This document shows, in pieces, positions 41,760-64,000 of a stretch of 64,000 nucleotides of DNA (positions within the stretch are counted from its first letter, which is position 1; every line of letters begins with the position of its first letter). A program made the translations under genes and the position numbers. The DNA comes from Pseudomonadota bacterium (GTDB taxonomy: Bacteria > Pseudomonadota > Gammaproteobacteria > Burkholderiales > Rhodocyclaceae). The notes under the pieces are model-generated. The model saw only the letters and a list, made by a program, of their open reading frames with translations, searched no databases and was not told the DNA's origin. The DNA lies in assembly GCA_018262095.1 (NCBI GenBank), contig JAGTRW010000013.1, forward strand, positions 124,001 through 188,000, written 5' to 3'.

Positions 41760-44471
<2,712 letters not shown>

Positions 44472-44490
44472 ACGAAAACGCTTTTTTGCG

Positions 44491-44545
44491 ACCACGGAGG
44501 GCACCGAGTTAACGATTTTGTTTGCTCCGTGCCCTCCGTCTTGAG
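44491..44545. repeat. Dispersed inverted repeat (CCACRGMG family), copy in secA-argJ gap
   Basis: The left arm ACCACGGAGGGCACCGAG (44491-44508) pairs with the right arm GCTCCGTGCCCTCCGT (44524-44539). It fills almost the whole gap between secA and argJ, close to the argJ start. Same family as the copies at 33156 and 61092, with AGG in place of GCG units. Confidence 0.7.
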
Positions 44546-44557
44546 AGAGACAAAACC

Positions 44558-45796: not shown

Positions 45797-46972
45797 ATGG
45801 TTGGGCACCGCTCATCTATGAATGCGAAAAACAGCGTCTGTTTCAAATGCGCCGTGCTTCTCTGGCTTGTCGCTTTTACCTATATCGCGGTCGGGCTCGG
45901 TGGCGACCCCTACCATCGCAGCATGACGCCGAGCTACCACGAGGCGGTCGCCCACTGGTGGGCGGGTCAGCCGGTCTATACCGGCCCGGCAGGGTTCAAC
46001 TATCTGCCGGTTTTTCTTCTGTTCTTCAGCGCTTTCGACGGCTTGCCGCTCGTCGTCGGTGAAATCGCCTGGCGTTTCCTCGCCTTTGCCGGGCTGGCGC
46101 TGGGCTTGTGGCGTTGCATTTCGCTGTTCGTTTCTGACGCCCGCGAGCAAACCAGTTCATTCGCCTTGGCGACGGCCTTGTTGCTGCCGATGGCGTTCAG
46201 CACGCTGCGCAACGGACAATCGAGCGCGCACCTTGCCGCCTGCCTGTTGTGGGCGTTCTGCTGTATCGGTCAGCAGAAATGGACTGGGGCGACGATCTGG
46301 CTGTGCCTGTCGCTGGTCTGCAAACCGCTCGGCTTGCCGGCGCTCGGACTTGCCGCGATGGCCTTTCCTCAGCTCAGAGGGCGAGCTGTGGTCGGGCTGG
46401 TCGTGGTGTTGCTGCTGCCCTACGTCTTCAATCCGGCAAGCTATGTCAATCAGATCTACCTCGAGTTTTGGCAGAACATCGTCGATTGCTCAGATGCCGG
46501 GGTGGCGATCGGCGATCGGACCTTTGCCGACCTCAATGGCGTACTCAGGATCGTCGGTCCGCAACTGACCGGAACATGGGCGCTGTGGACGAGCGCCTTG
46601 GCCGGGGTCGCGATGGCCGCCTTGTCGCTGCTGCTGGCGAAGTGCGAGGATAAAAAGATCAGCGGCTTGTATTGGCTCAGCTTTGCCGGCGGCTACATCA
46701 TGTTGTTCACCCCGATGAACGAACTCAATAGCTATGTCATGCTGGCGCCGGCCTTGTCGCTGTGGGCGGTGTGCTTTCAGGCGCAGCGCGACGCGAGGAG
46801 TTTTTACGCCATGCTGTTCATGGCGATCACGATCATTGCGCTGCCCGACCTCGTGGCGGTGTTTTTAGGAAAAGAGCCCGGCTTCGAGTTCGGCAAATCG
46901 TGGTGCCCTTTGCTGACGCTGATCTTCCTGGGCGTTCTCACGCAGCGACTCATTGCGATGAGGGAGCGCTAG
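45797..46972 (+). CDS. Polytopic membrane protein, GT87/DUF2029-type mannosyltransferase-like
   Basis: 391 residues with about ten hydrophobic segments. Features include an early PSYHEAVAHWWAGQPVY loop, the PVYTGPAGFNYLPVF motif, RNGQSSAHLAACLLWAF and CKPLGLPAL, typical of GT87-like polyprenyl-phosphate-dependent transferases. The start lies directly after the argJ stop; an in-frame ATG 21 bases later (MNAKNS) is equally possible. The acceptor is unknown. It ends 21 bases before the end of the convergent apaG gene. Confidence 0.7.
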   Translation: MVGHRSSMNAKNSVCFKCAVLLWLVAFTYIAVGLGGDPYHRSMTPSYHEAVAHWWAGQPVYTGPAGFNYLPVFLLFFSAFDGLPLVVGEIAWRFLAFAGLALGLWRCISLFVSDAREQTSSFALATALLLPMAFSTLRNGQSSAHLAACLLWAFCCIGQQKWTGATIWLCLSLVCKPLGLPALGLAAMAFPQLRGRAVVGLVVVLLLPYVFNPASYVNQIYLEFWQNIVDCSDAGVAIGDRTFADLNGVLRIVGPQLTGTWALWTSALAGVAMAALSLLLAKCEDKKISGLYWLSFAGGYIMLFTPMNELNSYVMLAPALSLWAVCFQAQRDARSFYAMLFMAITIIALPDLVAVFLGKEPGFEFGKSWCPLLTLIFLGVLTQRLIAMRER

Positions 46973-46993
46973 GTCTTTCAGGGAGGCAGACGC

Positions 46994-47377
46994 CTAATGC
47001 AGTACGCGCGGGATCGACAGCGTGAATTCGTCGACCGCCGCTTCGAACTGCATGCCGTCCTCGGCGGTGATCTGGAAGCTGCCGCGCATCGTTCCGACCG
47101 GCGTGTCGAGCTGACAGCCGCTGGTGTATTCGAAGGTCTCGCCCGGCTTCAAGAGCGGCTGCTGGCCGACGACGCCGAGGCCGCGCACTTCCTGCACGCG
47201 CGAGTTGCCGTCGGTGATCACCCAGTGGCGCGAAATCAGTTGCGCGGCGACGGTACCGACGTTCTCGAAAGTAATCGTGTAGGCGAAAACGTAGCGCTCG
47301 CCGGCCGGATCGGACTGGTCGGCGATGAACTGCGGAACGGCGCGCGCCGCGATCTGGTATTTCTTGCTTTCGGCCAT
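46994..47377 (-). CDS. apaG: ApaG domain protein
   Basis: 127-residue beta-sandwich protein. The conserved core runs from RYVFAYTITFENVGTVAAQL through SRHWVITDGNSRVQEVRGLG VVGQQPLLKPGE, FEYTSGCQLDTPVGTMRGSF and ends in FTLSIPRVLH. Its biochemical role is not settled; in enterobacteria it is linked to divalent cation resistance and ApaH. A longer upstream frame was rejected because the family begins near MAESKKYQI. Confidence 0.93.
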   Translation of the reverse strand: MAESKKYQIAARAVPQFIADQSDPAGERYVFAYTITFENVGTVAAQLISRHWVITDGNSRVQEVRGLGVVGQQPLLKPGETFEYTSGCQLDTPVGTMRGSFQITAEDGMQFEAAVDEFTLSIPRVLH

Positions 47378-47551
47378 GGCAGTCCTGATCCGTGAGTGAG
47401 CCCCGCATTGCACACCAAAGCGGCGCGCGAGGCAAGCGCGATCGCCAATGAGCAGCGCAAGGTGACGGTTTACGTCAGGTGGTGACGTCAATGGTCGGCG
47501 CGGCGCGCGGCTTGCGGACTCAAAAGCCCGGTTTCCCGTGATTTTCCCGCC

Positions 47552-47567
47552 TGGCACGGAACGTGAG
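47552..47567 (+). promoter_or_regulatory. Weak candidate sigma-54 promoter for the stand-alone pilin
   Basis: TGGCAC, ten bases, then GA where consensus has GC at -12. Only the -24 half matches well. It lies about 50 bases before the pilin start. pilA genes are often sigma-54 dependent, which is the only other support. Confidence 0.25.
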
Positions 47568-47615
47568 TGTATCTCGCCCAACGGGTCATCCGTTTCAACC
47601 TCAAGGAGTTACACC

Positions 47616-48074
47616 ATGAAAAAGGTTCAGCAAGGCTTTACCCTGATCGAACTGATGATCGTCGTCGCGATCATTGGCATTTTGGCCGCCGTGGCGCTGC
47701 CGGCTTATCAGGATTACACGATAAAGGCGAAGGTGTCGGAAGCGACATCAATCTCGTCTACGGCTCGTACGGCGCTTGCGTTGGCTTTTAATGAAGGCAC
47801 GCTTTCTACTAGCATTACCAATGCTGCTGCAGCTGACCCTGTCAGCGGTTTGCCAATCGCCACTGGCATTACGAGCACCTATGTCACCTCAGTTACTGCT
47901 GCTGGTACAAGTGCTACTGCCGGAACGGTTGTAGTAGTAATGAAAGGTACTGGAAACTCAGCCGTTGATACCAAAGACGTGACTTATACGATGACTTGTA
48001 CTGTCGCCGCTCAGTGCACATGGGCCGTTTCAAGTACTGGCGGGATCCCCGCGAAATATCTGCCGAAGATATAG
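47616..48074 (+). CDS. Type IV major pilin PilA-like
   Basis: 152 residues. Leader MKKVQQG and mature start [20 protein letters not shown] with Glu at +5, then [16 protein letters not shown], typical of true type IVa PilA pilins and different from MshA. A C-terminal Cys pair ([12 protein letters not shown]) forms the usual disulfide loop. Ribosome site AAGGAG is close upstream and a strong terminator follows, so it is a single-gene unit. Codon use is more AT-rich than in its neighbours. No other Pil genes are next to it. Its assembly machinery may be elsewhere, or be the MSHA machinery. Confidence 0.92.
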
Positions 48075-48140
48075 TTTTATTTCAACGAAGAACCGGAGGC
48101 AGACCACTGTTTCCGATCTGCCCTGCTGAGTTGAAGTACG

Positions 48141-48172
48141 AAAGCCCCGCCAGAAAAACGGCGGGGCTTTTT
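48141..48172 (+). terminator. Intrinsic terminator of the pilA-like gene
   Basis: Perfect 11-base stem AAAGCCCCGCC (48141-48151) with GGCGGGGCTTT (48160-48170), eight-base loop and a run of T. It is 67 bases after the pilin stop. Confidence 0.92.
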
Positions 48173-48227
48173 GTTGGGACATGCGTAGCGAAGTTACACT
48201 GGCGAGCAGCTGGCTTGCGCACGGAAC

Positions 48228-48698
48228 TCAGGCGAACTCAACCGGAATTGCCGCGCGCAGCACGGTCTGCGTCTCGCCCTGGCGCGTGCGGTTGGTAAAC
48301 CACCACAGCGCGCATTTCTTGATCGTCCAGTCGGCTTCCTCGCCGGAAAGCAGCAGCGCGGCGGCACGGCCGAGCGTCGGTTGGTGGCCGACGACGAGAA
48401 CTGCGCTATGGCCGTCTGGAGCGTCGCCGCCGTCGGGCCAGCCGATCGCGGCGAGCAGGCTGGCGACGTCGCTGCCAGCGCCGAGGCGCGCGTCGGTTTC
48501 GAACGGGACGCCGAGCGCGCGTGCCGTCTGCTGGCAGCGCAGCGCCGGGCTGGCGACGATGCGCAGCTTCTTAGGCGCGTTCTTCCTGAGCCACTGCCCC
48601 ATCTGCGCGGCCTGTTTCTCGCCGCGCGCGGTGAGCTTGCGTTTGGCGTCGGGGCTGCCTTGTTCGGCCTCGGCGTGACGCCAGAGCAGAAGGTCCAT
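48228..48698 (-). CDS. sixA: Phosphohistidine phosphatase SixA-like
   Basis: 156-residue histidine phosphatase-fold protein. The catalytic LLLWRHAEAE (RHG/RHA motif) is at the N-terminus, with VASPALRCQQTA and the second His in VLVVGHQPTLG. Short SixA enzymes remove phosphate from phosphohistidine in phosphotransfer proteins such as Hpt domains or PTS components. The start at MDLLLWRHA fits the family; a 25-codon upstream extension was rejected. Substrate here is unknown. Confidence 0.88.
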   Translation of the reverse strand: MDLLLWRHAEAEQGSPDAKRKLTARGEKQAAQMGQWLRKNAPKKLRIVASPALRCQQTARALGVPFETDARLGAGSDVASLLAAIGWPDGGDAPDGHSAVLVVGHQPTLGRAAALLLSGEEADWTIKKCALWWFTNRTRQGETQTVLRAAIPVEFA

Positions 48699-48769
48699 GA
48701 GCGTTTCCTCGGGAAAAGCATTCATGGTGGAAGGCGATTGTTGCACGCTGATGTCCACGGTGCCGGCGC

Positions 48770-49453
48770 TCACAGATCGTAGCCGCGCAGTTTTTCGACG
48801 TCGGGGATGGCGATCTTGCGTCCTTTGACGACGATCAGTCCGTTTTCGGAAAGCTCGTGCAGGATGCGCGAGAAGTGTTCCTGCGTCAGGTTGAGGCGCG
48901 AGGCGATGACGCCCTTGTTGGTCGGCAACGTGACGGTGAGCGCACCGCTGTCGCTATGGTCGCGCAGCAGGTAGCCGATGATTCGCTGGCGGCCCGAGTG
49001 CAGCGAATACGATTCGACGTCGGTGATCAGGTGGTGCAGGCGGATCGACAGGCTGGCGATCATCTTGCGCCCGAGCCTGGGGTCTTTTTCGATCTCGTCG
49101 AGGATCGCGGCTTTCGAAATGTGTAAGAGCTGCGAATCGGCGAGCGCCTGCGCGTAGACCATATACGGCTTTTCCATGAACATCACCGCTTCACCGAACG
49201 AGTGCCCCTGGCCGATGATGTCGACGACCTTCTCGCCGCCTTGCGGCGAGGTGAAGGCGAGCTTGATCTGGCCATAGACGATCAGGTGAAAGCCGGTCGA
49301 CACGTCGCCTTTGTGGAACAGCACGTCGCCGCGCAGCGCGTTGATCTGCCGCGTGCCGCGCGCGATGCGGGCGATTTCGTCCTGTTCGAGGCCGTTGAAA
49401 AGCGGGACGTGCGCGAGCAGCGCCTCGATGTTGATCCCCTGGGTGGCCGGCAT
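48770..49453 (-). CDS. Crp/Fnr-family transcriptional regulator (DNR-like)
   Basis: 227 residues. N-terminal cyclic-nucleotide-binding-fold domain (about 10-130, with VPLFNGLEQDEIARIARG and FHLIVYGQIKLAF, GHSFGEAVMFMEKPY), dimer helix (about 125-150) and a winged helix-turn-helix (LPTNKGVIASRLNLTQEHFSRILHEL). The Cys cluster of true FNR is absent, so it does not hold an oxygen-sensing Fe-S cluster. The sequence resembles DNR/NnrR-type regulators that sense NO through heme; that ligand is inferred. It follows guaC on the same strand by 24 bases. Confidence 0.85.
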   Translation of the reverse strand: MPATQGINIEALLAHVPLFNGLEQDEIARIARGTRQINALRGDVLFHKGDVSTGFHLIVYGQIKLAFTSPQGGEKVVDIIGQGHSFGEAVMFMEKPYMVYAQALADSQLLHISKAAILDEIEKDPRLGRKMIASLSIRLHHLITDVESYSLHSGRQRIIGYLLRDHSDSGALTVTLPTNKGVIASRLNLTQEHFSRILHELSENGLIVVKGRKIAIPDVEKLRGYDL

Positions 49454-49477
49454 GCGCGACTTTCGAATGACTGCTGT

Positions 49478-50518
49478 TCAGGCTTGTCCGAAGACTTCGT
49501 TGAGCTGCTGGGTGACGCGGACAAAGGTGGTGCGCTTGGAGAGTTCCTTGAGCGTTCGCGCGCCGACGTAGGTGCACGCCGAGCGAACGCCGCCGAGAAT
49601 TTCCTGCGCGGTGTGCTCGACCGGGCCGCGATAGTCGAGCAGCACGTCCTTGCCTTCGGCGGCGCGGTAGCCGGCGACGCCGCCGGCGTACTTGTCCATC
49701 GCTTCGCGCGAACTCATTCCGTAGAAGTGCATCTTGCGAACGCCGTCCTGCTCGACGATCTCGCCGCCGCATTCGTCGTGTCCGGCGAGCATGCCGCCGA
49801 GCATCACGAAGTCGGCGCCGGCGCCGAAAGCCTTGGCCAGGTCGCCCGGCGAGGTGCAGCCGCCGTCGGCGCAGATCAGCCCGTGCAGACCGTGCGCCGC
49901 GTCGGCACATTCGATGATCGCGGAGAGCTGCGGATAGCCGACGCCGGACATCCGCCGCGTGGTGCACACCGACCCCGGGCCGATGCCGACCTTGACGACG
50001 TCGACGCCGTCGAGGATCAGCTCCTCGGTCATTTCGCCGGTCACCACGTTGCCGGCCATGATGGTGATTTCGGGGTAGGCCGCGCGCAGTTTGTGGATGA
50101 AGCTGATGAAGGCTTTGGTGTAGCCGTTGGCGACATCGACGCAGACGTTCTGGATGGCGTCGCCGGCCGCTTCCTTGACGCGGCGGAACTTGTCGTAATC
50201 GGGCGCGGTGATCCCCATCGAGTAGAACGAGTTGGGCGGGCTCGCCGCTTCGGCAAAGAAGGCGAGCAGTTCGGCCTCGCCGTAGTGCTTGTGCAAGGCG
50301 ACGCAGAGCTGGTGGGCGGCCAGCGCGCGCGCCATCTCGAAGGTTCCGGTGGCGTCCATGTTGGCGGCGATCACCGGAATGCCGTGATACTTGCGCTGCG
50401 AGTGCAAAAAGACGAAATCGCGCGAAATATCGACCTCGGAACGCGAGGTCAGCGTCGATCGCTTGGGGCGGATGAGGACGTCCTTGAAGTCGAGTTTGAG
50501 GTCCTGTTCAATGCGCAT
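49478..50518 (-). CDS. guaC: GMP reductase GuaC
   Basis: 346-residue NADPH-dependent enzyme turning GMP into IMP for purine balance. Phosphate-loop and catalytic Cys in [22 protein letters not shown]-terminal [29 protein letters not shown], and the flap [22 protein letters not shown]. No CBS domains, which separates it from IMP dehydrogenase. Same strand and closely spaced with the Crp/Fnr gene. Confidence 0.95.
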
Positions 50519-50556
50519 ATCGGTGTTCTCTGGCGGTAGTTGACAAAATATCCGGT

Positions 50557-51126
50557 TCAGCCCGGCGCCGGCCGGGCTGCTTCGAGTTCAAGGTGGCAGG
50601 GTGCGAGCAGCAGGTGCGCGAGCTGCTCGGGATCGCTCGTTCCCAGATGGTCGGCAAAAGCCGCGAGCCGCGCGTCGCCGGCGGCGGTCAGCGCGTCGAT
50701 CAGCGCTTTGGCCGCCTCGCGCGGGTTGGTCGCCCCCGGCTGATAGCCCGGCCAGTCCTTGTAGTGCGCCAGCAACTGCGATCGGTGGTCCTGATAGAGC
50801 GCGCTTTGGCGGATGAACTCGAGTTCGACGCGCTTGGCCTCGATTTCGGCGTCGATCACCTCGTCGCTATCCTGGTAGTGCGCCTTCTCGGCGCTGCTCC
50901 AGTGCGGCTTGTCGCCATGGGTTTCGCGCAGCGTCACGAAGGTGTTCTTGAGCACCATCTGCGAATGCGTTCCAGCGTCGCGGAAGACATAGACGAGGTC
51001 CTTGCCCTGGCCCTCGGTGCCGACGTAGCGCATCCCCGCAGCGACGCGCCGCGGATTGAAGCCGAACTGGCGCGCGCACGCCGAGCGCAGGGTGGCTAGC
51101 AGTTCATTGGTTTTCGCAGGACTCAC
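50557..51126 (-). CDS. Unrecognised protein, 189 residues
   Basis: No family recognised. Soluble, mixed charge. The N-terminal half is well structured ([41 protein letters not shown]) with an aromatic [23 protein letters not shown], and a helical C-terminal part follows. No signal or membrane segment. It lies 38 bases before guaC on the same strand and may share its transcript. Clear coding character: GC-rich third positions throughout. Confidence 0.65.
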
Positions 51127-51313
51127 CGGACAATCCTTTCAGTGAATTATCGCCGTTTGGCGTTTCGCAGCATACGCCATTCGCCGGAAGAAAAGCAGGC
51201 CGTTCGCGCTGCGCTCGTCGCAGCGCAATGAGCAAGCTGGGCAGGCCTTCGACCGGTTCAGGCCGAACGCGCCAGCGTCGTCATTCTACCGAAACGAAGC
51301 AGAAGAAATACAG

Positions 51314-51829
51314 TCAGCCCGCGGGTCTGCGGAAGCCATCGGCGAGCCAGGCGCTGGCGCTCGCCAGCTTGAGTTTGAAGCCGGCGTCGACGCGCACCTG
51401 CGCCAGCTGTTCGCCCGCCTCGTCGTGCGCGGCGAGCAGCGCATGCGGGTCGTCTTCGTCGGCGACGAGGTCGAGCGTGATGCACAGCCGTCCGCCCGGC
51501 GTCGCCAGCGTCAGGCTCTTGTGCAGCTGCGCGTGCAGTTGTTGCTCGTGCCGGCGCAACACTTCGGCGGCGGTCTTGACCAGCGTGTTGAACGCCGAAA
51601 CGTCAAGCGGCTTCGGGTCTTTTTTGTTGCGTCCCATGGTCCACGGGCCGACCAAGGCAGGTTCGGGTTCGCCGTCCTTGATCATCTCGACGGCCCAGCC
51701 CTCGTCGTCTTCGTTTTTGATCACTCGAGCGGTCCAGCCGTTGTTGATCCACAGCCGCGCCTGGTGGACCGCGTCGGGCTGTTCGCAGTCGGCCACTGCG
51801 TCGGTTTCGTCAATTGGTTTGGAAGTCAT
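51314..51829 (-). CDS. Unrecognised acidic protein, 171 residues
   Basis: No family recognised. The start is placed at MTSKPIDETDAVA rather than 20 codons earlier. An acidic N-terminus is followed by a compact domain with ARLWINNGWTARVIKNEDDEGWAVEMI, then GPWTMGRNKKDPKPLDVSAFNTLVKTAAEVLRRHEQQL and a beta-rich end. No signal peptide or membrane helix, so cytoplasmic. A 187-base gap with a short GCTGCG inverted repeat separates it from the previous gene. Confidence 0.65.
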   Translation of the reverse strand: MTSKPIDETDAVADCEQPDAVHQARLWINNGWTARVIKNEDDEGWAVEMIKDGEPEPALVGPWTMGRNKKDPKPLDVSAFNTLVKTAAEVLRRHEQQLHAQLHKSLTLATPGGRLCITLDLVADEDDPHALLAAHDEAGEQLAQVRVDAGFKLKLASASAWLADGFRRPAG

Positions 51830-51987
51830 GGAGCGAATTGTACGTCGCCGCGGTTCTCCCGCGAAGTTCGGCCAGACGATCCTGAACATAGCGCAGTCGG
51901 GTGACCGACCGTAATAGTTTGTAAAGCCGGTCAGCGCATCGTGCTTCGCTGCGTTATATTGAAATCCTTACCGCTTCGGAGCTTCCA

Positions 51988-52377
51988 ATGAAAGCGTTCC
52001 TCCTGGCTATTCTGGCGCTGTTGCTGAGCCAGTCCGCCTTCGCTCAGTATCACGGACACGGTGGCTATTACGGCCACGGTGGCCACGGTTATTACGGGCC
52101 GCGTGTCGGCTTCTATTTCGGCGCGCCTTATCCGTGGGTTCCGCCGCCGACCTACTACTATCCGCCACCCGTGGTTTACGCGCCGCCGGTGGTCACCATT
52201 CGCGAAGCGCCGACCGTCTATATCGAACAGGACCAGGTGGCGGCGCCGGTCGTTCAGTCGCAGCAGACCTTCGAGCCGGGTTACTGGTACTACTGCCAGG
52301 AACGCCAGGGTTACTACCCGACGGTCAAAAGCTGCCCCAGCGCATGGCAAAAAGTCGCGCCGTCAACTAATCGGTGA
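51988..52377 (+). CDS. Exported Gly/His/Tyr/Pro-rich small protein
   Basis: 129 residues with a clean signal peptide (MKAFLLAILALLLSQSAFA). The mature protein opens with repeated HGHGGYYGHGGHGYYG, then a Tyr/Pro-rich PTYYYPPPVVYAPP stretch, and ends in a conserved-looking FEPGYWYYCQERQGYYPTVKSCPSAWQKV with two Cys. The His-rich segment could bind metal; the Cys-containing end resembles small periplasmic or surface proteins often found before glycine-zipper lipoproteins. The stop overlaps the next gene by four bases. Confidence 0.75.
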   Translation: MKAFLLAILALLLSQSAFAQYHGHGGYYGHGGHGYYGPRVGFYFGAPYPWVPPPTYYYPPPVVYAPPVVTIREAPTVYIEQDQVAAPVVQSQQTFEPGYWYYCQERQGYYPTVKSCPSAWQKVAPSTNR

Positions 52378-52955
52378 GCGCGATGACTGCCAAGACTTTT
52401 CTTCTGCGTCGATTCTCTCCCCTGCTGCTGCTCGGCCTTGCCGCCTGCGTCAGCGTCCCGACCGGACCGAGCTTGATGGCGCTACCGGGGTCCAACAAGG
52501 ACTTTGACCAGTTCCGCGCCGACGAGGCGATGTGCCGCAACTACGCCAGCCAGTCGATCGGCGCGACCACCGCCAGCGGCACCGCGGTCGATGCCGGCGT
52601 GACCAGCGCGCTGATCGGTACGCTGGTCGGCGCCGCGGCCGGCGCCGCGGTCGATGGCTCGCATGGCGCCGGCGTCGGCGCCGGCATGGGCCTGGTCGTC
52701 GGCAGCGTGGCTGGCGTCGGCGCCGCCGATGCGTCGCGTTACGGTACCCAGCAGCGTTACGACCAGAGCTACGTGCAGTGCATGTATTCGCGCGGCCATC
52801 AGGTTCCGGTCTCGGGCGGCTACAGCGTGCGTCGAGCGGTCGCTCCGGCGGTGCCGGCGCCTGATTACGTGCCGCCGCCGGGCAACCCGCCGCCACCGCC
52901 GGGAACGCCGCCCGCTCCGCCTGCGGGTGACCCGCCGCCGCCGCCGCTGCGTTGA
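52374..52955 (+). CDS. Glycine-zipper outer membrane lipoprotein with Pro-rich tail
   Basis: 193 residues. Lipobox LLLGLAAC near residue 24. The central part (about 60-125) is a Gly/Ala-rich zipper, ALIGTLVGAAAGAAVDG and GAGMGLVVGSVAGVGA, forming a membrane-inserting hairpin, followed by QSYVQCMYSRGHQVPV. The last 40 residues are mostly Pro and Gly (PPPGNPPPPPGTPP). It is translationally coupled to the small exported protein before it. The function is probably structural at the envelope. Confidence 0.8.
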   Translation: MSAMTAKTFLLRRFSPLLLLGLAACVSVPTGPSLMALPGSNKDFDQFRADEAMCRNYASQSIGATTASGTAVDAGVTSALIGTLVGAAAGAAVDGSHGAGVGAGMGLVVGSVAGVGAADASRYGTQQRYDQSYVQCMYSRGHQVPVSGGYSVRRAVAPAVPAPDYVPPPGNPPPPPGTPPAPPAGDPPPPPLR

Positions 52956-53033
52956 TCCTTCCTCGGTAGGCGCTTCGCTCTACCGACCTTCACGCTGGTC
53001 GGTAGAGGGGCGGGGTGCTAGCATTCGCTTCCC

Positions 53034-53893
53034 ATGAAAATCGAAGCCATCCGCCAGCGCCTGCGCGAGCTCGGCGCCAAACCCTGCCATGAACAACGCC
53101 TGCTGCGCGCCTGGCTGCAGGCGCAGTCGCTCGGCAGCGGTACGCGCCGCCAGCGTGCCGAGGACTTTCTGCCGCTCGCCTTGCGTGACGCACTGCCGGC
53201 GATCGGCGCCGAACTCTCGGCGCTGGCGCAAGTGCGCTCCGAACACCCCGGCGCCGACGGTTCGGCGCGCCTCTTGGTCGAACTCGCCGACGGGCAGGCG
53301 GTCGAGAGTGTGCTGCTGCCGCGTGCGGGCCTGTGCGTATCGACGCAGGTCGGCTGCGCGGTCGGCTGCCAGTTCTGCATGACCGGCCGCGACGGCCTGC
53401 TGCGCCAGCTCGGCAGCGCCGAGATCGTCGCCCAGGTGGTGCTCGGGCGAAGCCGGCGGAGCGTCGGCAAGGTCGTCTTCATGGGCATGGGCGAGCCGGC
53501 GCACAACCTTTCCAACGTGCTCGAAGCGATCGAACTGCTCGGCACCGCCGGCGCGATCGCGCACAAGAACCTCGTTTTCTCGACGGTCGGCGACCATCGC
53601 GTTTTTGAGCGTTTCGCGCAGCTGCCGCCCGGTGCCGTCAAGCCGGCGTTGGCGATTTCATTGCACACGAGCGACGCGCAGTTGCGCGCGACGCTCTTGC
53701 CGCGCGCGCCGCGCATAGCCCCGGCCGAACTCGTCGAACTCGGCGAACGCTACGCGCGAGCGACCGGTTATCCGATCCAGTACCAGTGGACGCTGCTCGA
53801 AGGCGTCAACGACGGCGACGACGAAATCGACGCGATCGCGAGGCTGCTTTCCGGCAAGTACGCGATGATGAATTTCATCCCCTACAACACCAA
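53034..53893 (+). CDS. RlmN/Cfr-family radical SAM RNA methyltransferase, 3' end lost at adapter
   Basis: About 287 genuine residues. Radical SAM cluster motif CAVGCQFC (about 104-111) follows RAGLCVSTQVG. VVFMGMGEPAHNLSNV, FSTVGDHRVFERFA, KPALAISLHTSDAQLRATLLP and YPIQYQWTLLEGVND are typical of the family. The genuine sequence ends at MNFIPYNTN; the following bases are sequencing adapter, so about 50-70 C-terminal residues, including the second catalytic Cys region, are missing from the assembly. It may be a paralogue of housekeeping RlmN, since the usual RlmN neighbours are absent. The gene is probably intact in the organism. Confidence 0.85.
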
Positions 53894-53952
53894 CTGTCTC
53901 TTATACACATCTGACGCTGCCGACGACGGAGAGAGTGTATATCTCGGTGGTC
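53894..53952. other. Illumina Nextera adapter sequence embedded in the contig (artefact)
   Basis: 53894-53912 is exactly the 19-base Tn5 mosaic end CTGTCTCTTATACACATCT. 53913-53926 (GACGCTGCCGACGA) completes the Nextera read-1 adapter. 53927-53934 (CGGAGAGA) sits where the i5 index belongs, and 53935-53952 matches the start of the P5 arm with one mismatch. The order is exactly that of a read running out of its insert, so this is not genomic DNA. Confidence 0.97.
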
Positions 53953-54125
53953 TTGATTTCTAGGCGGCGGACTTGGGAAAATAGGTTTAATATTCACCAG
54001 TTTGATTGGCCCGCGCGCTTGCCGAAATCGATGGGCTATTGCGGGGCTTGTTTCGGATTGGCCGTTGCGTTCAGGCGATTTCGCCCAGGCGTTTCGTAAC
54101 AGCGTTTGCAGGAAGTCAGCAGAAG

Positions 54126-56288
54126 ATGATTCCGCCTCAGCCGGTCAAGATCGAGATTCCCTTCGGGAGCCGCCCGGTGATGGCCGGCGCCGGCATGCGC
54201 AGCAAGCTGCCTCTGGTGCGCCTGCCGATGATGCCGCAGGTGCTGGTCTGTCTGCTCGACCTATACCATCGCGACGACGTCAGTCTTGGCGAAATCGCCG
54301 ACGTCATCCGGCGCGACGCCGGCATGTCGGCCAAGATCATGTCGGTCGCCACGTCGGCCAGCCTGCACGGACGCAGTCGGCCGGCTAGCCTCGATCAGTG
54401 TCTCTCGCTGCTCGGCATGAGCGCGCTCAAGAAAATCGTGATCAACGAATCGATCCTGCAGGTCTTTCGGCGCTTCACCAAGGATAGAGAATTCGACCTG
54501 CGCCGTTTCTGGGAGCATTCGCTGCGCAGCGCGCTGATCGCTCGCGAGCTGGCCAAGGCGATGGCTTACGCCAACCACGACGAAGCCTATCTGGGCGGCC
54601 TGTTGCACGATGTCGGTCAATTGGCGATGCTGGCCGCCGACGCCGACAGCTATTTCCCGCTGATTACCCACCGGGGCGACGATGACGGCCTGTGCGCCCT
54701 GGAGCAGCAAAGTTACGAGCTGACGCACGCCGAAGTCGGTGCCTGGCTGATCGAAAAGTGGGAGCTCGACTCGCTGCTTTCCGATGGCGTGCTTTATCAC
54801 CATGACCCGGTCGAGCGCCTGGTCGGCGCCCATGCGCTGATCCGCATCGTTTTTCTCGCCAACCGGCTGGCGCTTCTGCGCGGCCAGCCGCTGTCCGCGG
54901 CGGACAGCGAACTGGCGCGCCAGTGCGACGCCGGCAACGTCGAGCTGGCGCCGCTGCTCGAAAAAATCGAGCAGGAACTGATCGATCTCGCGCAGGAGCT
55001 CGGCATCGAGTTGCTCGAAACGCTGCCGGGTGATCCGGCGTCAGACGACGCCGCCAATTGCGGCGCCGACGTGCTGAGCGATCGGGTGCGCGACGTGTTG
55101 CTGGTCGATAACGTGCTTGGCGACGTGCTGCCTTCGGATAGCCTCGAGTCGACGCTCCATCATATTGCCCAGGCGGCAAAAGTGTTGTTCAAGGTCAATC
55201 CGGTCTTTTATTTCCTGCCGCACGAAAAAGGCAGCGATCGCTATTGCGCGCATCCGATCGGCGGTCGGTCGGCGCAGGTCTCGCAACTGGACTTCGTGCG
55301 CGGGCGCAGCAAGTCGGGCGTGGCGCGTGCGATCGATCACGGCATCCTGTCGATCGCCGCCGATTCGCCGGACAACGAGTTGCTCGATCATCAGCTGCTG
55401 CGCCTGACGGGAAGCGCCGGCTTGCTGCTCGTTCCGCTGCGCAGCAAGGGCGAATGTCAGGGGGTGCTGGTCGCCGGCTTCGCCAGCGTGCTGCAGGCCA
55501 ACGACTTGTGGACGCGAATTCCCTGTTTCGAGAGCTTTGCCAGCCTCGCCGGCGATCTGCTGCGCCAGGGCCTGCTGCCGGTGGCCGCTGCCTTGTCGGC
55601 GACCCCCGCCGGTGAGGACGCGGGGCGCGAACGTCTGCGGCGGGTGGTCCATGAAATAGGCAATCCGCTCGCCATCATCCAGAATTACCTGTCGACGCTC
55701 AAGGCCAAATACGCGCAGAGCGATGTCGGTACGCGCGAACTCGGGATCGTGAGCGACGAGATCGGCCGGCTGACCAGAATCCTGCATGACGCCTTGCACG
55801 ATTCCGGCGAGACGCCTAGCGCGGTCGGCGCCGTCAAGCTCAATGCGCTGATCGAGAACCTGGTTTTGCTCTGCCGCAACTCGGGTTTTGTCGCCAAGAG
55901 CGTCGATATCCGCACCGAGTTGTTCGCCGATCCGCCCGAGTTGTGGACCGATAGCGACCGGCTCAAGCAGTTGCTGCTCAATCTCATCAAGAACGCGGTC
56001 GAAGCGATGCCCAGCGGCGGCGTCGTGCGGGTCGGCTCGGCGCCGTGGGGCAACGGCGTGCGGCCGACGCACATCGAAATTCGCATCGATGATTCGGGTT
56101 CGGGAATCCCCGCCGAGGTTCTGGCCAACCTTTATCAGCCGGTGTCGAGCAGCAAGGGGAGCAACCATCAGGGCGTCGGGCTGGCGATCGTCGGCCAGCT
56201 GGTCGGCGATCTGCACGGCCTGATCAACTGCCGTTCGAGTGAACAGGGCAGCAGTTTTCAACTGCTGCTGCCGCTGGGCAAGCGATGA
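54126..56288 (+). CDS. HDOD-GAF-histidine kinase signalling protein
   Basis: 720 residues from the ATG at MIPPQPVKIE; an upstream extension was rejected as it runs toward the adapter join. An HDOD domain (about 25-225, with GLLHDVGQLAML) is followed by a GAF-like region (about 340-485) and a histidine kinase: phosphorylatable H509 in VVHEIGNPLAIIQNYL, N box NLIKNAVEAMP (N623) and G1 box DDSGSGIP. No membrane helix is seen, so a cytoplasmic sensor is likely. The stop overlaps the REC-GGDEF-EAL gene by four bases, which makes that protein its obvious partner. Confidence 0.9.
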   Translation: MIPPQPVKIEIPFGSRPVMAGAGMRSKLPLVRLPMMPQVLVCLLDLYHRDDVSLGEIADVIRRDAGMSAKIMSVATSASLHGRSRPASLDQCLSLLGMSALKKIVINESILQVFRRFTKDREFDLRRFWEHSLRSALIARELAKAMAYANHDEAYLGGLLHDVGQLAMLAADADSYFPLITHRGDDDGLCALEQQSYELTHAEVGAWLIEKWELDSLLSDGVLYHHDPVERLVGAHALIRIVFLANRLALLRGQPLSAADSELARQCDAGNVELAPLLEKIEQELIDLAQELGIELLETLPGDPASDDAANCGADVLSDRVRDVLLVDNVLGDVLPSDSLESTLHHIAQAAKVLFKVNPVFYFLPHEKGSDRYCAHPIGGRSAQVSQLDFVRGRSKSGVARAIDHGILSIAADSPDNELLDHQLLRLTGSAGLLLVPLRSKGECQGVLVAGFASVLQANDLWTRIPCFESFASLAGDLLRQGLLPVAAALSATPAGEDAGRERLRRVVHEIGNPLAIIQNYLSTLKAKYAQSDVGTRELGIVSDEIGRLTRILHDALHDSGETPSAVGAVKLNALIENLVLLCRNSGFVAKSVDIRTELFADPPELWTDSDRLKQLLLNLIKNAVEAMPSGGVVRVGSAPWGNGVRPTHIEIRIDDSGSGIPAEVLANLYQPVSSSKGSNHQGVGLAIVGQLVGDLHGLINCRSSEQGSSFQLLLPLGKR

Positions 56289-58507
56289 ATAGCCTGTCGA
56301 TCGTTCCGCGCAGCGAGCCGAATTCGTCGGTCAATGCCGATCAACGTGTTGCGCCGCACGCCGACCTGCTCAAGACGCGCCGTCTGGTGGTGGTCGATGA
56401 CGACGAAGCGTTCCGCATCAGCCTGTGTGATCTGCTGCACAGCCGCGGCTACCCGATGCCTGAGTCGTGCTCGGGCGGGCGCGATTTGATCAGTCTGCTG
56501 ATGGAGGGCGCGCCCTTCGACCTCGTTCTGCTCGACCTGACCATGCCCGATCTGGGCGGCCTCGACGTGCTCAGGATGTTGCGCCAGGCCAAGCTCGAAG
56601 TCGCCGTCGTGGTCGTCAGCGGTGACCGCATGATGGAGTCGGCGATCGGCGCCTTGCGGCTCGGTGCAAACGATTACGTGCGCAAGCCCTACGCTCCGGA
56701 AATGCTGCTGCATACCGTCGAGACCGTGCTGCGGCGCCACGACCTCGAAAAGTCGCATCGCCAGATGACGGCGCAGCTCGAGTGTTCCGAGCGGATGCAC
56801 CGCTTTCTGGTCAACACTTCGCCGGATCTGATTTTCACGCTCGACGAAGCGCATAATTTTTCGTTTGTCAGCGACCGCGTCGGACAATTGATCGGGTGCA
56901 CCGCCGATGAGCTCGCAGGCCTGTCGTTCTTCTCGATCATTTTCGAGGAGGATGTTGAACGAACGCGCTATCTCCTCGACCGCGTCGGCAAGGGCGAGTG
57001 TTCGACCGAGCTGCGCCTGGTCAGTCGCGAGCATTCGAGCTACCGCCATTTCGACGTCAAGCTGATTCCCGTCGAATTTTCCGATCTGCATCTATCGCGC
57101 GCAGCCGGGCCGCACCGTGGCGTCTATGTCGTGGCGCGCGACATCAGCGACAAGAAGCTGGCCGACGATCACCTCGCCTATCTCGCCTATCACGACGTGC
57201 TCACCGGCCTGCCCAACCGCGCGCTGTTCCGCGACCGCGTCGGGCTGGCGATGGTTCAGGCCAAACGCAGCGGAATGAAGGCGGCGACGATGTTCGTCGA
57301 CCTCGATCGCTTCAAGCTGGCCAACGACACCTTCGGTCATCAGAAGGGCGACGAACTGCTCAAGGAAGTGGCGCGGCGCCTGCAGGACAGCTTGCGCGAA
57401 ACCGATACCCTGGCGCGCATCGGCGGCGACGAGTTTACGGTGCTGCTGCCGTGCATCCGTTCGACCGAGGATGCGGCGCACGTCGCCGGCAAACTGGTCG
57501 CCGACATGGCGCGTCCGTACCTGGTGTCCGATAACGAGGTTTTCCTGACGGCGAGCATCGGCATTTCGATCTGGCCCGAGGATGGCGACGACATCGAAAC
57601 GCTGATGCGTCACGCCGACCTCGCGATGTATCACGTCAAGTCGACCGGCAAGAACAATTTCGGCTTTTTCTCGAGCACCATGGGCCAGGCGTCGAGCCGG
57701 CGCTTGTCGTTCGAGAACGAGCTGCGCCATGGCTTCGAAGACGAGCAGTTCGAACTCTATTATCAGCCCCAGGTCGATGCCGAGTCGCAGCAGGTGGTCG
57801 GGCTCGAAGCCTTGGTCCGCTGGCGGCACCCGGCCAAAGGCGTGGTCTCGCCCGGACACTTCATCCCGGTGGTCGAAGAGATCGGCCTGATGCCGGCGCT
57901 GACCTACTGGGTTCTTGAAACCGCGTGCCGTGATCTGCGCGACTGGTGGGAGCGCGGCTTTGACGTTCCGCGCATGTCGATCAATGTCTCTCCGGCGGTG
58001 CTCGACAACGGTGATTTCAGTCGGCGTCTGGAGGGGACGCTCAAGAAATACGCGATTCCGCACGAAAATTTCGAAATCGAAATCACTGAAAACATTTTCG
58101 TCGGCGACCGCCAGAAGGTCTCCGACTGCCTGCTGCGCATTTCGCAAAAGGGAATTCGCATCGCCATCGACGATTTCGGTACGCAATACTCGTCGCTGAG
58201 CTACCTGCGCTATCTGCCGGTCAGTACGCTCAAGATCGACCAATCCTTCGTTCGCGAGATCGACCGCGTCGACGACAGCTCGCCGATCGTTCGCGCGATC
58301 ATCGCCATCGCCGCCGGGCTCAATCTCAATGTCGTCGCCGAGGGCGTCGAGACCGAAGTGCAGGCCGAGTTCCTGCGCCGCCTGGGCTGCCGCGAAATGC
58401 AGGGTTACCTCTACGGCCGCCCGTTGCCGGTCGATGCGCTCGAGCGCTTGCTGACGCGCGTCTCGCCGCGACCGGTGGTCGAGATCGAGGCCGGCAGCGC
58501 GGGCTGA
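56285..58507 (+). CDS. REC-PAS-GGDEF-EAL response regulator (c-di-GMP turnover)
   Basis: 740 residues. Receiver domain (about 30-150) with D84 in LLDLTMPD and K134; PAS domain (about 165-290); diguanylate cyclase with intact GGDEF (380-384) and inhibitory I-site RETD (371-374) five residues before it; EAL phosphodiesterase with EAL (508-510), EITEN, DDFGTQYSS and AEGVETE. All catalytic motifs for both making and breaking c-di-GMP are present. It starts in a four-base overlap with the HDOD kinase gene and is probably phosphorylated by it. Net activity cannot be read from sequence. Confidence 0.93.
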   Translation: MNSLSIVPRSEPNSSVNADQRVAPHADLLKTRRLVVVDDDEAFRISLCDLLHSRGYPMPESCSGGRDLISLLMEGAPFDLVLLDLTMPDLGGLDVLRMLRQAKLEVAVVVVSGDRMMESAIGALRLGANDYVRKPYAPEMLLHTVETVLRRHDLEKSHRQMTAQLECSERMHRFLVNTSPDLIFTLDEAHNFSFVSDRVGQLIGCTADELAGLSFFSIIFEEDVERTRYLLDRVGKGECSTELRLVSREHSSYRHFDVKLIPVEFSDLHLSRAAGPHRGVYVVARDISDKKLADDHLAYLAYHDVLTGLPNRALFRDRVGLAMVQAKRSGMKAATMFVDLDRFKLANDTFGHQKGDELLKEVARRLQDSLRETDTLARIGGDEFTVLLPCIRSTEDAAHVAGKLVADMARPYLVSDNEVFLTASIGISIWPEDGDDIETLMRHADLAMYHVKSTGKNNFGFFSSTMGQASSRRLSFENELRHGFEDEQFELYYQPQVDAESQQVVGLEALVRWRHPAKGVVSPGHFIPVVEEIGLMPALTYWVLETACRDLRDWWERGFDVPRMSINVSPAVLDNGDFSRRLEGTLKKYAIPHENFEIEITENIFVGDRQKVSDCLLRISQKGIRIAIDDFGTQYSSLSYLRYLPVSTLKIDQSFVREIDRVDDSSPIVRAIIAIAAGLNLNVVAEGVETEVQAEFLRRLGCREMQGYLYGRPLPVDALERLLTRVSPRPVVEIEAGSAG

Positions 58508-58605
58508 ACGGCGATCGCTCGGGGCGTCTTCGTTCCGGCCATTGAAAACCCGTCTGATCTCGGGCGGGCGGTATACTGCGTCGCTAACACCCACTGGAGA
58601 AACAC

Positions 58606-59769
58606 ATGGCCGCTTCACCCGAGACTGTCAGCATGGCGATGTTCTGCGACTTCGAGAACGTCGCGCTTGGCGTACGCGACGCCAACTACGAGAAGTTCGA
58701 CATCAAGCCGGTGCTTGAACGCTTGCTGCTCAAGGGCAGCATCGTGCTCAAGAAGGCCTACTGCGACTGGGAGCGCTACAAGGGCTTCAAGGCGACGATG
58801 CACGAGGCCAACTTCGAGCTGATCGAGATTCCGCACGTCCGCCAGTCGGGCAAGAACTCGGCCGACATCCGCATGGTCGTCGATGCGCTCGACCTGTGCT
58901 ATACGAAATCGCACGTCAATACCTTCGTCATCGTCAGCGGCGATTCCGATTTCTCGCCGCTGGTCTCCAAGTTGCGCGAGAACGCCAAGTACGTGATCGG
59001 CGTCGGCGTCAAGCAGTCGACGTCGGACCTCTTGATCGCCAACTGCGACGAGTTCATTTTCTACGACGACCTGGTTCGCGAGATCCAGCGCAGCGCGGCG
59101 CGGCGCGATCCGAAGTCGCAGCAGCACGCGCCCAAGCGCACGCCCGAGGAGGACAAGAAGCGGCGCGACGAAGGCGAGGCGCGCAAGAGCCAGGCGATCG
59201 AGCTGGCGGTCGCCACCTTCGAGGCGCTGATCGCCGAGCGCGGCGACAGCGGCAAGATCTGGGCGTCGATGCTCAAGGAGGCGATCAAGCGCCGCAAACC
59301 CGATTTCAACGAGACCTACTACGGCTTTCGCGCTTTCGGCAACCTGCTCGAGGAGGCGCAGTCGCGCGGCCTGCTCGAACTGGGTCGCGACGAGAAATCG
59401 GGTGCTTTCGTCTATCGCAGCAGCGCTGCAGTCGCGGCGCGCGGCGAGCCGCTGCCTGGCGATGCGGCCAAGCCATCGACTCCAGCGAAGGTCGAAAAGG
59501 CGCCGGTCGCCGAGCCGGCGGCGCCGGTCGTGGCCGCGGTCGCGCCGGCCGCGCCCAAGCGCCGCGGCCGCGGCGGCAAGGTCAAGGCGGCTGCCGAAAA
59601 AGTCACAGCGGAATCGGCATCTGTCGAAACGATCGTCGCTGCTGCGGTTCAGGAGCCGCCGGCCGTCGCCGAAACGCCCGCCGTTGAGTCAGTTCAGGCG
59701 GAGAAAAAAACCGCGGCGCGCAGCCGTCGGCCGCGCCAGCCCAAGGCCGCAGCCCCCGAATCAGCCTGA
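58606..59769 (+). CDS. NYN-domain (LabA/PIN-like) protein with OST-HTH-type domain and basic tail
   Basis: 387 residues. NYN nuclease-fold domain (about 8-160): MAMFCDFENVALG, KKAYCDWERYKGF, SADIRMVVDALDLCY and VIVSGDSDFSPLVSKLRE hold the acidic catalytic residues. A charged linker is followed by an OST-HTH/LOTUS-like domain (about 195-275: AIELAVATFEALIAERGDSG, ASMLKEAIKRRKPDFNE). The final 110 residues are Ala/Pro/Val/Lys-rich with RRGRGG and RSRRPRQPKA, probably RNA-binding. A TATACT box at 58572 is a possible -10. It probably acts on RNA; target unknown. Confidence 0.88.
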   Translation: MAASPETVSMAMFCDFENVALGVRDANYEKFDIKPVLERLLLKGSIVLKKAYCDWERYKGFKATMHEANFELIEIPHVRQSGKNSADIRMVVDALDLCYTKSHVNTFVIVSGDSDFSPLVSKLRENAKYVIGVGVKQSTSDLLIANCDEFIFYDDLVREIQRSAARRDPKSQQHAPKRTPEEDKKRRDEGEARKSQAIELAVATFEALIAERGDSGKIWASMLKEAIKRRKPDFNETYYGFRAFGNLLEEAQSRGLLELGRDEKSGAFVYRSSAAVAARGEPLPGDAAKPSTPAKVEKAPVAEPAAPVVAAVAPAAPKRRGRGGKVKAAAEKVTAESASVETIVAAAVQEPPAVAETPAVESVQAEKKTAARSRRPRQPKAAAPESA

Positions 59770-59879
59770 AGGCCGGCGGACGGGACTTTCCCGAGGGGAT
59801 GCCGGGAAAGCCAGTGTCTATGCGCTTTCCCGGGCGGGTGGTCTGAACATCGTCGATTGGCGGGCCGCCCGCCAGGGTG

Positions 59880-61049
59880 TCAGGACTGCAGGTAACGAAC
59901 GCGCAGCACGCCGGCGATCGCCGAGAGCTGGTCGATCACCGCGGGCGGTACGGCGGCGCCGACATCGACCAGCGTGAACGCCAGGTCGCCGCGCGACTTG
60001 TTGGTCATGTTGACGATGTTGAGTCCGGCGTCGGCGAGCAGCGTCGAGATCTGCGCCAGCATCTTGGGCACGTTGGCGTTGGCGATCGCCAGCCGGTACG
60101 CCGATTCGCGCGCCATATTGATGTTGGGGAAATTGACCGAATTGACGATGTTGCCGTGGTCGAGATAATCGGCGACCTGGTCGGCGACCATCACCGCGCA
60201 GTTTTCCTCGGCTTCCTCGGTCGATGCCCCCAGGTGCGGCAGCGCGACGAAGCGCGGATGCTGGCGCAGCAGGTTGCTCGGGAAGTCGCAGACGTAGGCG
60301 TGCAGGCGGTTCTCGTTGAGCCCGTCGAGCACGGCCTGTTCATTGACGATGCCGTCGCGCGCGAAGTTGAGCAGGATCGTTCCCTTCTTCATCAGCTTGA
60401 TGCGTTCGGCGTTGATCAGGTCGCGGGTCGCGGGAAGCAGCGGCACGTGCAGGCTGATGAAGTCGGCGCGCTTGACGAGCTCATCGACGCTGGCCGCTTT
60501 CCTGACGCTCGACGGCAATCGCCAGGCGGCGTCGATGGTGATTTCCGGGTCGAAGCCGATGACGTTCATGCCGAGCTTGATCGCCGCATCGGCGAGCATC
60601 GAGCCGATCGCGCCGAGGCCGACGATGCCCAGCGTACTGCCGGCGAGCTCGTGGCCGACGAAGTGCTTCTTGCCGGCCTCGACCTGTTTGTGCAGCGACT
60701 CGTCGTCGCCGTGCAGGCCGGCGACGAAGTTGAGCGCCGGGAAGATGTTGCGCGTGCCGAGCAGCATGCCGGCGATGACCAGTTCCTTGACCGCGTTGGC
60801 GTTAGCGCCCGGCGCGTTGAAGACGACGACGCCGCGCTCGCTCATCGCCTTGATCGGGATGTTGTTGGTGCCGGCGCCGGCGCGGCCGATGGCCTGCACG
60901 CTGGCCGGGATGACCATTTCGTGCATGACCTGCGAACGCACCAGAATGGCGTCGGGGGCGCTGCCGTCATTGCTGACGACGTAGCTTTCGGGAAGCCGCG
61001 ACAGCCCCTTCTTCGAAATGGCGTTGAGCGTCTGGATTTTGCGGGTCAT
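59880..61049 (-). CDS. serA: D-3-phosphoglycerate dehydrogenase SerA
   Basis: 389-residue NAD-dependent first enzyme of serine synthesis. Rossmann signature LGIVGLGAIGSMLADAAIKLGM, catalytic Arg/Glu/His region with LHVPLLPATRDLINAE and PHLGASTEEAEENCAVM, and a C-terminal ACT domain (about 315-389: PKMLAQISTLLADAGLNIVN) for serine feedback. The short form without the extra intervening domain. It lies downstream of serC on the same strand, separated by a dispersed repeat. Confidence 0.94.
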   Translation of the reverse strand: MTRKIQTLNAISKKGLSRLPESYVVSNDGSAPDAILVRSQVMHEMVIPASVQAIGRAGAGTNNIPIKAMSERGVVVFNAPGANANAVKELVIAGMLLGTRNIFPALNFVAGLHGDDESLHKQVEAGKKHFVGHELAGSTLGIVGLGAIGSMLADAAIKLGMNVIGFDPEITIDAAWRLPSSVRKAASVDELVKRADFISLHVPLLPATRDLINAERIKLMKKGTILLNFARDGIVNEQAVLDGLNENRLHAYVCDFPSNLLRQHPRFVALPHLGASTEEAEENCAVMVADQVADYLDHGNIVNSVNFPNINMARESAYRLAIANANVPKMLAQISTLLADAGLNIVNMTNKSRGDLAFTLVDVGAAVPPAVIDQLSAIAGVLRVRYLQS

Positions 61050-61091
61050 GACGGGAGTCCTTCGTCGTTAGCTTGGCGTAAAAAGGGCATT

Positions 61092-61163
61092 CACCACAGC
61101 GAACACGGCGAAACCCGAATACGATCAGGTTTTTCGCTGTGTTCGCTGTGCACGCCGTGGTTG
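61092..61163. repeat. Dispersed inverted repeat (CCACAGCGAACACGG family), copy in serC-serA gap
   Basis: The left arm CACCACAGCGAACACGGCGA (61092-61111) pairs with the right arm TTTTCGCTGTGTTCGCTGTG continuing CACGCCGTGGTTG (61131-61163). The loop contains ATACGATC. It is the most regular of three copies in this window. Confidence 0.8.
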
Positions 61164-61182
61164 GCTGGTGTTGGGTCGTTGC

Positions 61183-62265
61183 TTAGCCGTGCTGCTTTTC
61201 GAAGTCGCGCATCAGGTCGACCAGCGCCTGCACGCCTTCGATCGGCATCGCGTTGTAGATCGACGCGCGCATGCCGCCGACCGAGCGGTGTCCCTTGATC
61301 TGGATCATTCCGCGCGCCTTGGCGGCCTTGATGAATTCGTCGTCGAGCGCGGCATCCTTGAGCGTGAACGGGATGTTCATCAGCGAACGGTTCTCCGGCG
61401 CGACCGGCGAGATGAAGAAGCTCGACGCGTCGAGCGCGTCGTAAAGCAGCTTGGCCTTGGCGCGGTTGGTCTTTTCCATCGCCGCCAGGCCGCCCTTGGC
61501 CTTGAGCATCTTGAATACCAGCCCGGCGATGTAGATCGCGTAGGTCGGCGGGGTGTTGTACATCGAGTCGTTTTCGGCGTGGATCGCGTAGTCGAACATC
61601 GTCGGCGTCCCCTTGACCGTCTGGCCGATCAGGTCGTCGCGGACGATCACGATGGTGAGGCCCGCCGGGCCGACGTTCTTCTGCGCGCCGAAGTAGATCA
61701 GCCCGAATTTTTCAACGTCGATCGGCCGTGACAGGATGTTCGACGACATGTCGGCGACCAGCGGCACGTCGCCGGTCTGCGGCGTCCAGAACAGCTCGAC
61801 GCCGCCGATCGTCTCGTTCGACGTGTAGTGCACGTAGGCGGCGTTGGGGTCGAGCTTCCAAGCGTCCTGTGTCGGCGCGTAGGAGAAGTTCTTGTCTTCC
61901 GACGTGGCGACGACATTGACCTGGCCGTATTTCTTGGCCTCCTTGATCGCCTTCTTCGACCATTCGCCGGTATTGAGGTAATCGGCCGACGCTTTGCCGC
62001 GCAGCAGGTTCATCGGCACCATCGCGAACTGCGCGGATGCGCCGCCCTGCAGGAACAGCACCTTGTAGTTGGCGGGAATTCCCAGCAGCTCGCGCAGGTC
62101 GGCTTCGGCGTCGGCCTGGATGCTCATGTATTCCTTGCCGCGGTGCGACATTTCCATCACCGACATGCCGCAGCCGTGCCAATTGACGAGTTCGTCACGC
62201 GCTTGTTCGAGAACCTCGAGCGGCAGGGCGGCGGGGCCGGCGCTGAAATTGAAGATGCGTTCCAT
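61183..62265 (-). CDS. serC: Phosphoserine aminotransferase SerC
   Basis: 360-residue pyridoxal-phosphate enzyme of serine (and pyridoxine) synthesis. MERIFNFSAGPAALPLEVLE at the start, FLQGGASAQFAMVPMNLL, the PLP lysine in YFGAQKNVGPAGLTIVIV, and GGMRASIYNAMPIEGVQALV at the end are all typical. The start was placed at MERIFNF; an upstream extension was rejected. It is followed on the same strand by serA. Confidence 0.96.
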   Translation of the reverse strand: MERIFNFSAGPAALPLEVLEQARDELVNWHGCGMSVMEMSHRGKEYMSIQADAEADLRELLGIPANYKVLFLQGGASAQFAMVPMNLLRGKASADYLNTGEWSKKAIKEAKKYGQVNVVATSEDKNFSYAPTQDAWKLDPNAAYVHYTSNETIGGVELFWTPQTGDVPLVADMSSNILSRPIDVEKFGLIYFGAQKNVGPAGLTIVIVRDDLIGQTVKGTPTMFDYAIHAENDSMYNTPPTYAIYIAGLVFKMLKAKGGLAAMEKTNRAKAKLLYDALDASSFFISPVAPENRSLMNIPFTLKDAALDDEFIKAAKARGMIQIKGHRSVGGMRASIYNAMPIEGVQALVDLMRDFEKQHG

Positions 62266-62352
62266 GGGGAAGTGATCCTTTCGTGAAAATGAGCGGGAGG
62301 AAATGGTCTGGCGGAGGGCAATGCTGTGCTGGTCGCGTGACGCCAAGCGCAC

Positions 62353-62383
62353 ATTCTAACGATATTGACCGCCGCTGTGGCAA
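62353..62383 (-). promoter_or_regulatory. Candidate serC promoter
   Basis: On the minus strand TTGCCA (62378-62383) and TAGAAT (62353-62358), separated by 19 bases, lie about 90 bases upstream of serC. The spacing is slightly long. Confidence 0.35.
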
Positions 62384-62470
62384 GCAGGCGACAAAGGCGC
62401 GCGGCAAAGCCGCGCCGATTGCCGAATCGGCAAGGCGAGCGGGACGATGCGCGGGGCGTCGGGCGCCAAA

Positions 62471-62518
62471 CCGCCGTCAGCGGCGGTCGCGCCAAGGGCC
62501 CGGACGTTTCGTCCGGGC
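62471..62518 (-). terminator. Hairpins after panD, possible pan operon terminator
   Basis: Read on the minus strand, GCCCGGACG-AAA-CGTCCGGGC (62498-62518) is followed by CCGCCGCTGACGGCGG and a short T-run (62471-62486). Either could end the panBCD transcript; the second is the better candidate. Confidence 0.5.
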
Positions 62519-62535
62519 TGCTTCAGGGGCTGGGG

Positions 62536-62916: not shown

Positions 62917-62996
62917 GGTCTTTCCGGTGCAAGTAGGGTTGAGGGAGGGCATTGTAGCGGCTCACGGCGGCCTGTCAAATGGCCGCGCCGCGCTGC

Positions 62997-64000
<1,004 letters not shown>

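Follow-up and report, generated by a model that had tools for sequence, protein, structure and literature searches.

The 59 bases at positions 53894 to 53952 of the window (the whole 64,000-nucleotide stretch analysed here) are an untrimmed Illumina Nextera (XT) adapter, an assembly artefact without biological novelty. The best overall explanation, to which we assign a probability of about 0.87, is that the tail of a Nextera read-through adapter was fused to DNA lying a short way downstream. Judging from gene order in related genomes, the sequences on its two sides are most likely true neighbours separated by a local assembly gap, and not remote loci spliced together.

A base-by-base comparison with the oligos resolves the 59 bases into the Tn5 mosaic end, the part of the Nextera read-1 adapter that follows it, the index CGGAGAGA and part of the P5 arm:

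53894-53912, - strand: Tn5 mosaic end, 19 bases, synthetic; 19/19 identical and the sole exact copy within the window
53913-53926, - strand: remainder of the Nextera read-1 adapter, TCGTCGGCAGCGTC; 14/14 identical
53927-53934, - strand: 8-base i5 index S511, TCTCTCCG on the - strand; the same index is found in the adapter on contig C23
53935-53952, - strand: P5 flow-cell arm, 18 bases; 17/18 identical, mismatch at 53940

Nextera's read-1 transposon oligo, taken as its reverse complement, is identical to bases 53894-53926 at 33/33 positions. The oligo letters used agree with the oligos, including the Nextera read-1 adapter, printed in an excerpt of PMC7402673. The index CGGAGAGA is the reverse complement of S511, and the match to the reverse complement of P5 ends at 53952; in the 11 bases that follow, only 3 positions agree with P5. 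An earlier sequence-only reading of the window had placed a Nextera adapter at exactly these coordinates and had seen one mismatch in the P5 arm, and both observations hold. The index that it named was also right, because S511 is given as TCTCTCCG in an excerpt of PMC7589761, there on primers with other tails. The 5' to 3' direction of the adapter is that of the - strand, the orientation seen when a read runs past the end of its insert. We rejected a chance match: if all four bases are used equally, the 33-mer is expected to occur exactly about 1e-13 times in the 4.8 Mb genome, and the 51 fixed bases, with at most one mismatch allowed, about 3e-22 times.

The window belongs to a 223-kb contig (C55) in a genome of 82 contigs, and a search of this genome allowing at most one mismatch returns three copies of the mosaic end. 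Contig C23 (4,762 bases) terminates in an adapter of 70 bases that is complete, carries the same index and has P5 intact (29/29); it is followed by AAAAAAGG, a sign of reads running off the molecule. This adapter, at L071:4685-4762, interrupts an open frame whose start resembles, by eye, a flagellar hook protein. The interior of contig C68 holds an i7-side adapter at 6020 (L070:6020) that stops 3 bases into P7; its index, ATCTCAGG, is N715 in the excerpt of PMC7589761. With N715 on C68 and S511 on C55 and C23, N715/S511 is most likely the index pair of the library, whose reads would then have been trimmed incompletely. C65 has a P5-like stretch with 3 mismatches, but none of the three mosaic ends of the genome belongs to it, and it looks native.

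The mosaic end derives from Tn5 ends, and a reading of the stretch as native DNA would make it a real Tn5-type transposon end or the mark of a strain tagged with such DNA. In that case, however, one would have to explain why the mosaic end is followed, in the proper sequence, by the read-1 adapter, a catalogue index and the P5 arm, and why contig C23 closes with an adapter that has this index and is complete through P5, with a run of A behind it. Moreover, a search for exact matches in 40 genomes (this one and 39 relatives; 23 of the same genus) found the mosaic end in 0/39 relatives, making this genome the sole carrier. For practical purposes, a native Tn5 end is refuted. Five features of Nextera contamination are present: the mosaic end, the read-1 part directly after it, a catalogue index that is repeated in the assembly, a flow-cell arm and absence from relatives.

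The adapter interrupts an rlmN-like gene, whose reading frame continues into it:

53034-53893, + strand: genuine part of the rlmN-like gene, a PRK14464/NF011034-type RNA methyltransferase with its 3' end missing (NF011034 profile)
53894-53963, + strand: artefact tail of the open reading frame, (N)CLLYTSDAADDGESVYLGGLDF and stop (ORF list)

Against NF011034/PRK14464 the gene scores 523 bits (cut-off 422), and against TIGR00048 RlmN 169.5 bits, below the cut-off of 290. The sequence-only reading had called the gene truncated, as indeed it is: the match covers positions 1-281 of the 348 in the profile and ends where the adapter begins, so that the protein is not full length and adapter stands in the place of positions 282-348. 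A full-length RlmN lies on C48 of the same genome, and the cut gene is therefore a paralogue and not the sole RlmN. By hand count, 50, 50, 55 and 82 residues lie past the truncation point in the same-genus loci L056, L060, L065 and L054, respectively; at least the last ~50 codons are lost. As a separate observation, the rlmN-like matches in G018, G010, G011 and G020 (L010, L011, L021 and L022) each include a single in-frame stop within the range of the match; in G018 and G010 it sits at the extreme 3' end.

The open reading frame runs through the adapter to a stop at 53961-53963. The earlier reading had treated any database protein ending in LLYTSDAADD as an artefact. An artefact tail is present, but the protein predicted from the window ends in LLYTSDAADDGESVYLGGLDF and not in LLYTSDAADD (ORF list). 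As a remark on database proteins, the warning is reasonable; the last residue of such a tail, D or E after LLYTSDAAD, also depends on the first base of the index.

The missing 3' end of the gene was not found to the right of the adapter, either by three-frame translation or by tblastn with the C-termini of five relatives, in the window and neighbouring stretches. The best tblastn match on that side is a 26-residue stretch inside the kinase gene with E = 0.007, and with nothing better we rejected the possibility that the end lies there. We also rejected a location elsewhere in the assembly. A family search of the genome returned, besides the cut gene, only the full-length RlmN on C48, and the C-terminal 57 residues encoded by the G018 gene matched, above noise, only this same paralogue (32.9 bits, 42% identity). 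As a positive control, these 57 residues were found in 5/5 relatives, including G018, with scores of 60.6 to 120.3 bits.

To the right of the adapter, the window contains the following features:

53953-54125, no strand: apparently genuine non-coding DNA preceding the next gene, with no trace of the rlmN 3' end (three-frame translation, tblastn)
54006-56288, + strand: HDOD / histidine-kinase gene (Pfam; strong DNA matches in G007 and G022)
56285-58507, + strand: response regulator-PAS-GGDEF-EAL gene, paired with the HDOD gene (Pfam; same pair in G007 and G022)
58606-59769, + strand: NYN-domain gene, often located close to the rlmN-like gene in this genus (relatives' gene neighbourhoods)
59880-61049, - strand: D-2-hydroxyacid dehydrogenase, serA-like (Pfam for the domain)
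61183-62352, - strand: class-V aminotransferase, serC-like (Pfam for the domain)

By inspection, the HDOD / histidine-kinase gene more likely starts at 54126 than at 54006. The NYN-domain gene, 4.7 kb to the right of the adapter, is the one that bears on linkage. Of the 23 genomes from the same genus, an rlmN-like match exceeds the cut-off in 13, and 11 of those also have the NYN-domain gene. Measured between the matched ranges, the two genes lie at most 15 kb apart in 7/11, and in 5/11 they have the order and strand of the window, with NYN downstream by 65 bases in G005, 0.8 kb in G013, 6.9 kb in G006, 7.1 kb in G018 and 14.6 kb in G003. In G007, NYN is 0.3 kb upstream of the rlmN-like gene; in G009, it is 8.0 kb away, upstream and on the opposite strand. 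The genes are on separate contigs in G002, G021 and G023. If independence is assumed, the count expected by chance in place of 7 is 0.09, a figure that serves as a guide only, the genomes being related. Outside the genus, both genes are on one contig in 0/3 genomes that have both (G028, G035 and G037).

The sequence-only reading had held that linkage of the two sides is unproven. Exact adjacency is indeed unproven, but the doubt was overstated: the conserved order of the rlmN-like and NYN genes (7/11) makes a remote false join less likely and a read end at a local gap more likely. A false join would mean that the adapter tail fused remote pieces of the same genome and that everything right of 53952 belongs elsewhere. 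Three observations speak for it: the HDOD/EAL pair lies elsewhere in G007; the rlmN-like and NYN genes are ~1.3 Mb apart in G010, a genome in 4 contigs; and the other internal adapter of the assembly, C68:6020, joins flanks that are on different contigs in three relatives. The separate contigs of the rlmN-like and NYN genes in G002, G021, G023 and the three genomes outside the genus, and the absence of an HDOD/GGDEF-EAL pair between them in the 11 genomes, likewise count against a local join. A random join, however, would place NYN a few kb downstream and correctly oriented in well under 1% of cases, by an estimate based on ~15 kb in 4.8 Mb. We consider a false join unlikely, and because it would so rarely give the arrangement in the window, we take the join to be locally right, with some DNA missing.

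The join at C68:6020 has a different character. Here the adapter truncates a GGDEF gene at its 3' end, leaving the artefact tail LVGSEMCIRDS. The left flank is a cobT-cobS region, and the right flank, read by eye, is the cut GGDEF gene with the genes beyond it. G002, G003 and G005, the three relatives with good matches to the right flank, all have the two flanks on different contigs. The left flank occurs a second time in the same genome (C26) and several times in relatives, and this makes the flank test somewhat weaker. The C68 join is without gene-order support and is more suspect than that of the window.

What lies between and beyond the rlmN-like and NYN genes differs among relatives. The serA-like and serC-like genes are close to NYN in G013 and G010 and at most 10 kb from it in G005 and G006, and the serA-like gene adjoins NYN in G018; since they lie ~745 kb from NYN in G007, and in G002 and G003 are not on the contig of NYN, this block is not fixed. 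No HDOD/GGDEF-EAL pair was found between the rlmN-like and NYN genes in the 11 genomes (nine neighbourhoods were read, and G003 and G021 were covered by DNA search). G010 has a partial GGDEF match (32%) ~2 kb downstream of its rlmN-like gene, and G005 has a GGDEF-EAL match (36%) on the upstream side. Both G007 and G022 have the pair elsewhere, in G007 ~950 kb from its rlmN-like gene. In G018 (L060:2261-8962) a type I dehydroquinase accompanies an RND efflux operon in the slot, and G006 has open frames of similar size there; the slot therefore varies. If the join in the window is locally right, we lean slightly toward regarding the interval as a variable slot in the genus that is occupied here by the HDOD-kinase and GGDEF-EAL pair.

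The right side could also be a chimera, contributed by a different species in the metagenome bin, and the assembly does have an estimated contamination of 2.17%. Yet genes on both sides of the adapter have close same-genus relatives, with amino-acid identities to G018 of 84% for the rlmN-like gene, 91% for NYN and 93% for the IMPDH/GMP-reductase-domain gene at 49478. The G+C content is 0.637 in 44000-53893 versus 0.635 in 53953-64000. Such a chimera is highly improbable.

Fusion of an adapter tail to DNA a short way downstream probably came about as follows. A tagmented insert shorter than the read would have ended at 53893, and read 2 would have continued past its end through mosaic end, read-1 adapter, S511 index and P5 arm; it is the orientation of the adapter that points to read 2. 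The assembler would have retained this tail, and scaffolding, gap filling or polishing would later have joined it to DNA that lies shortly downstream in the real genome, the last ~50 or more codons of the rlmN-like gene being lost in the gap. We infer both the joining step and that little more DNA is missing.

The relevance of these results is to data hygiene only. The truncated methyltransferase is not to be taken as a natural variant, its artefact tail should stay out of protein databases, and claims on the sequence immediately downstream of this genome's rlmN-like gene need checking. UniVec and FCS-adaptor screens target Nextera-type adapter sequence. Finding an adapter in a contig is not in itself a sign that the flanks are unrelated; gene order in relatives can separate a likely local gap, as in the window, from an unsupported join, as at C68:6020.

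The same adapter is found in public contigs. Pattern scans for the 33-mer returned at least 120 genome stretches and at least 120 viral stretches, from which records of this genome itself may be left out. Among the matches listed, the 33-mer is at most 100 bases from the contig end in 121/126 matches to genome contigs and at most 500 bases in the other five; four of these five continue into A-rich or G-rich tails and the fifth (L101) into other sequence. For viral contigs, 117/120 of the matches listed are at most 100 bases from the end, and three are internal (L194, L255 and L264). An adapter inside a contig is thus the rarer form among the matches listed. The LLYTSDAAD frame is open for at least 80 codons upstream in 49 of the 246 matches listed, so gene models with this tail are to be expected; the literature searched yielded no mention of the artefact peptides LLYTSDAAD, LVGSEMCIRDS, SSAASDVYKRQ, SRGLGDVYKRQ and VSYTHLTLPT. 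The index CGGAGAGA follows the adapter in 0/197 listed matches that have 8 following bases, and these matches therefore reveal no sister assembly that shares the index.

Like the window, L101 and the viral L194, L255 and L264 carry the adapter away from the very end of a contig. In L194, however, Ns adjoin the adapter, and in L255 and L264 the stored stretch ends beside it. L101 (JAUCQE010000132.1, 3882-3943) shares with the window a P5 match that stops early, after 19 bases compared with 18, with other sequence continuing beyond; it differs in its 10-base index and in being a public MAG contig with the adapter 466 bases from its end. Set against Nextera/Nextera XT read-through as it is known (Tn5ME-A, i5 index, P5), the copy in the window is unusual in lying inside a 223-kb contig and not at its end, and in having a P5 arm that stops after 18/29 bases and carries one mismatch. 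In contrast, its 33/33 adapter bases, S511 index, P5 arm and read-through orientation are those of the known system.
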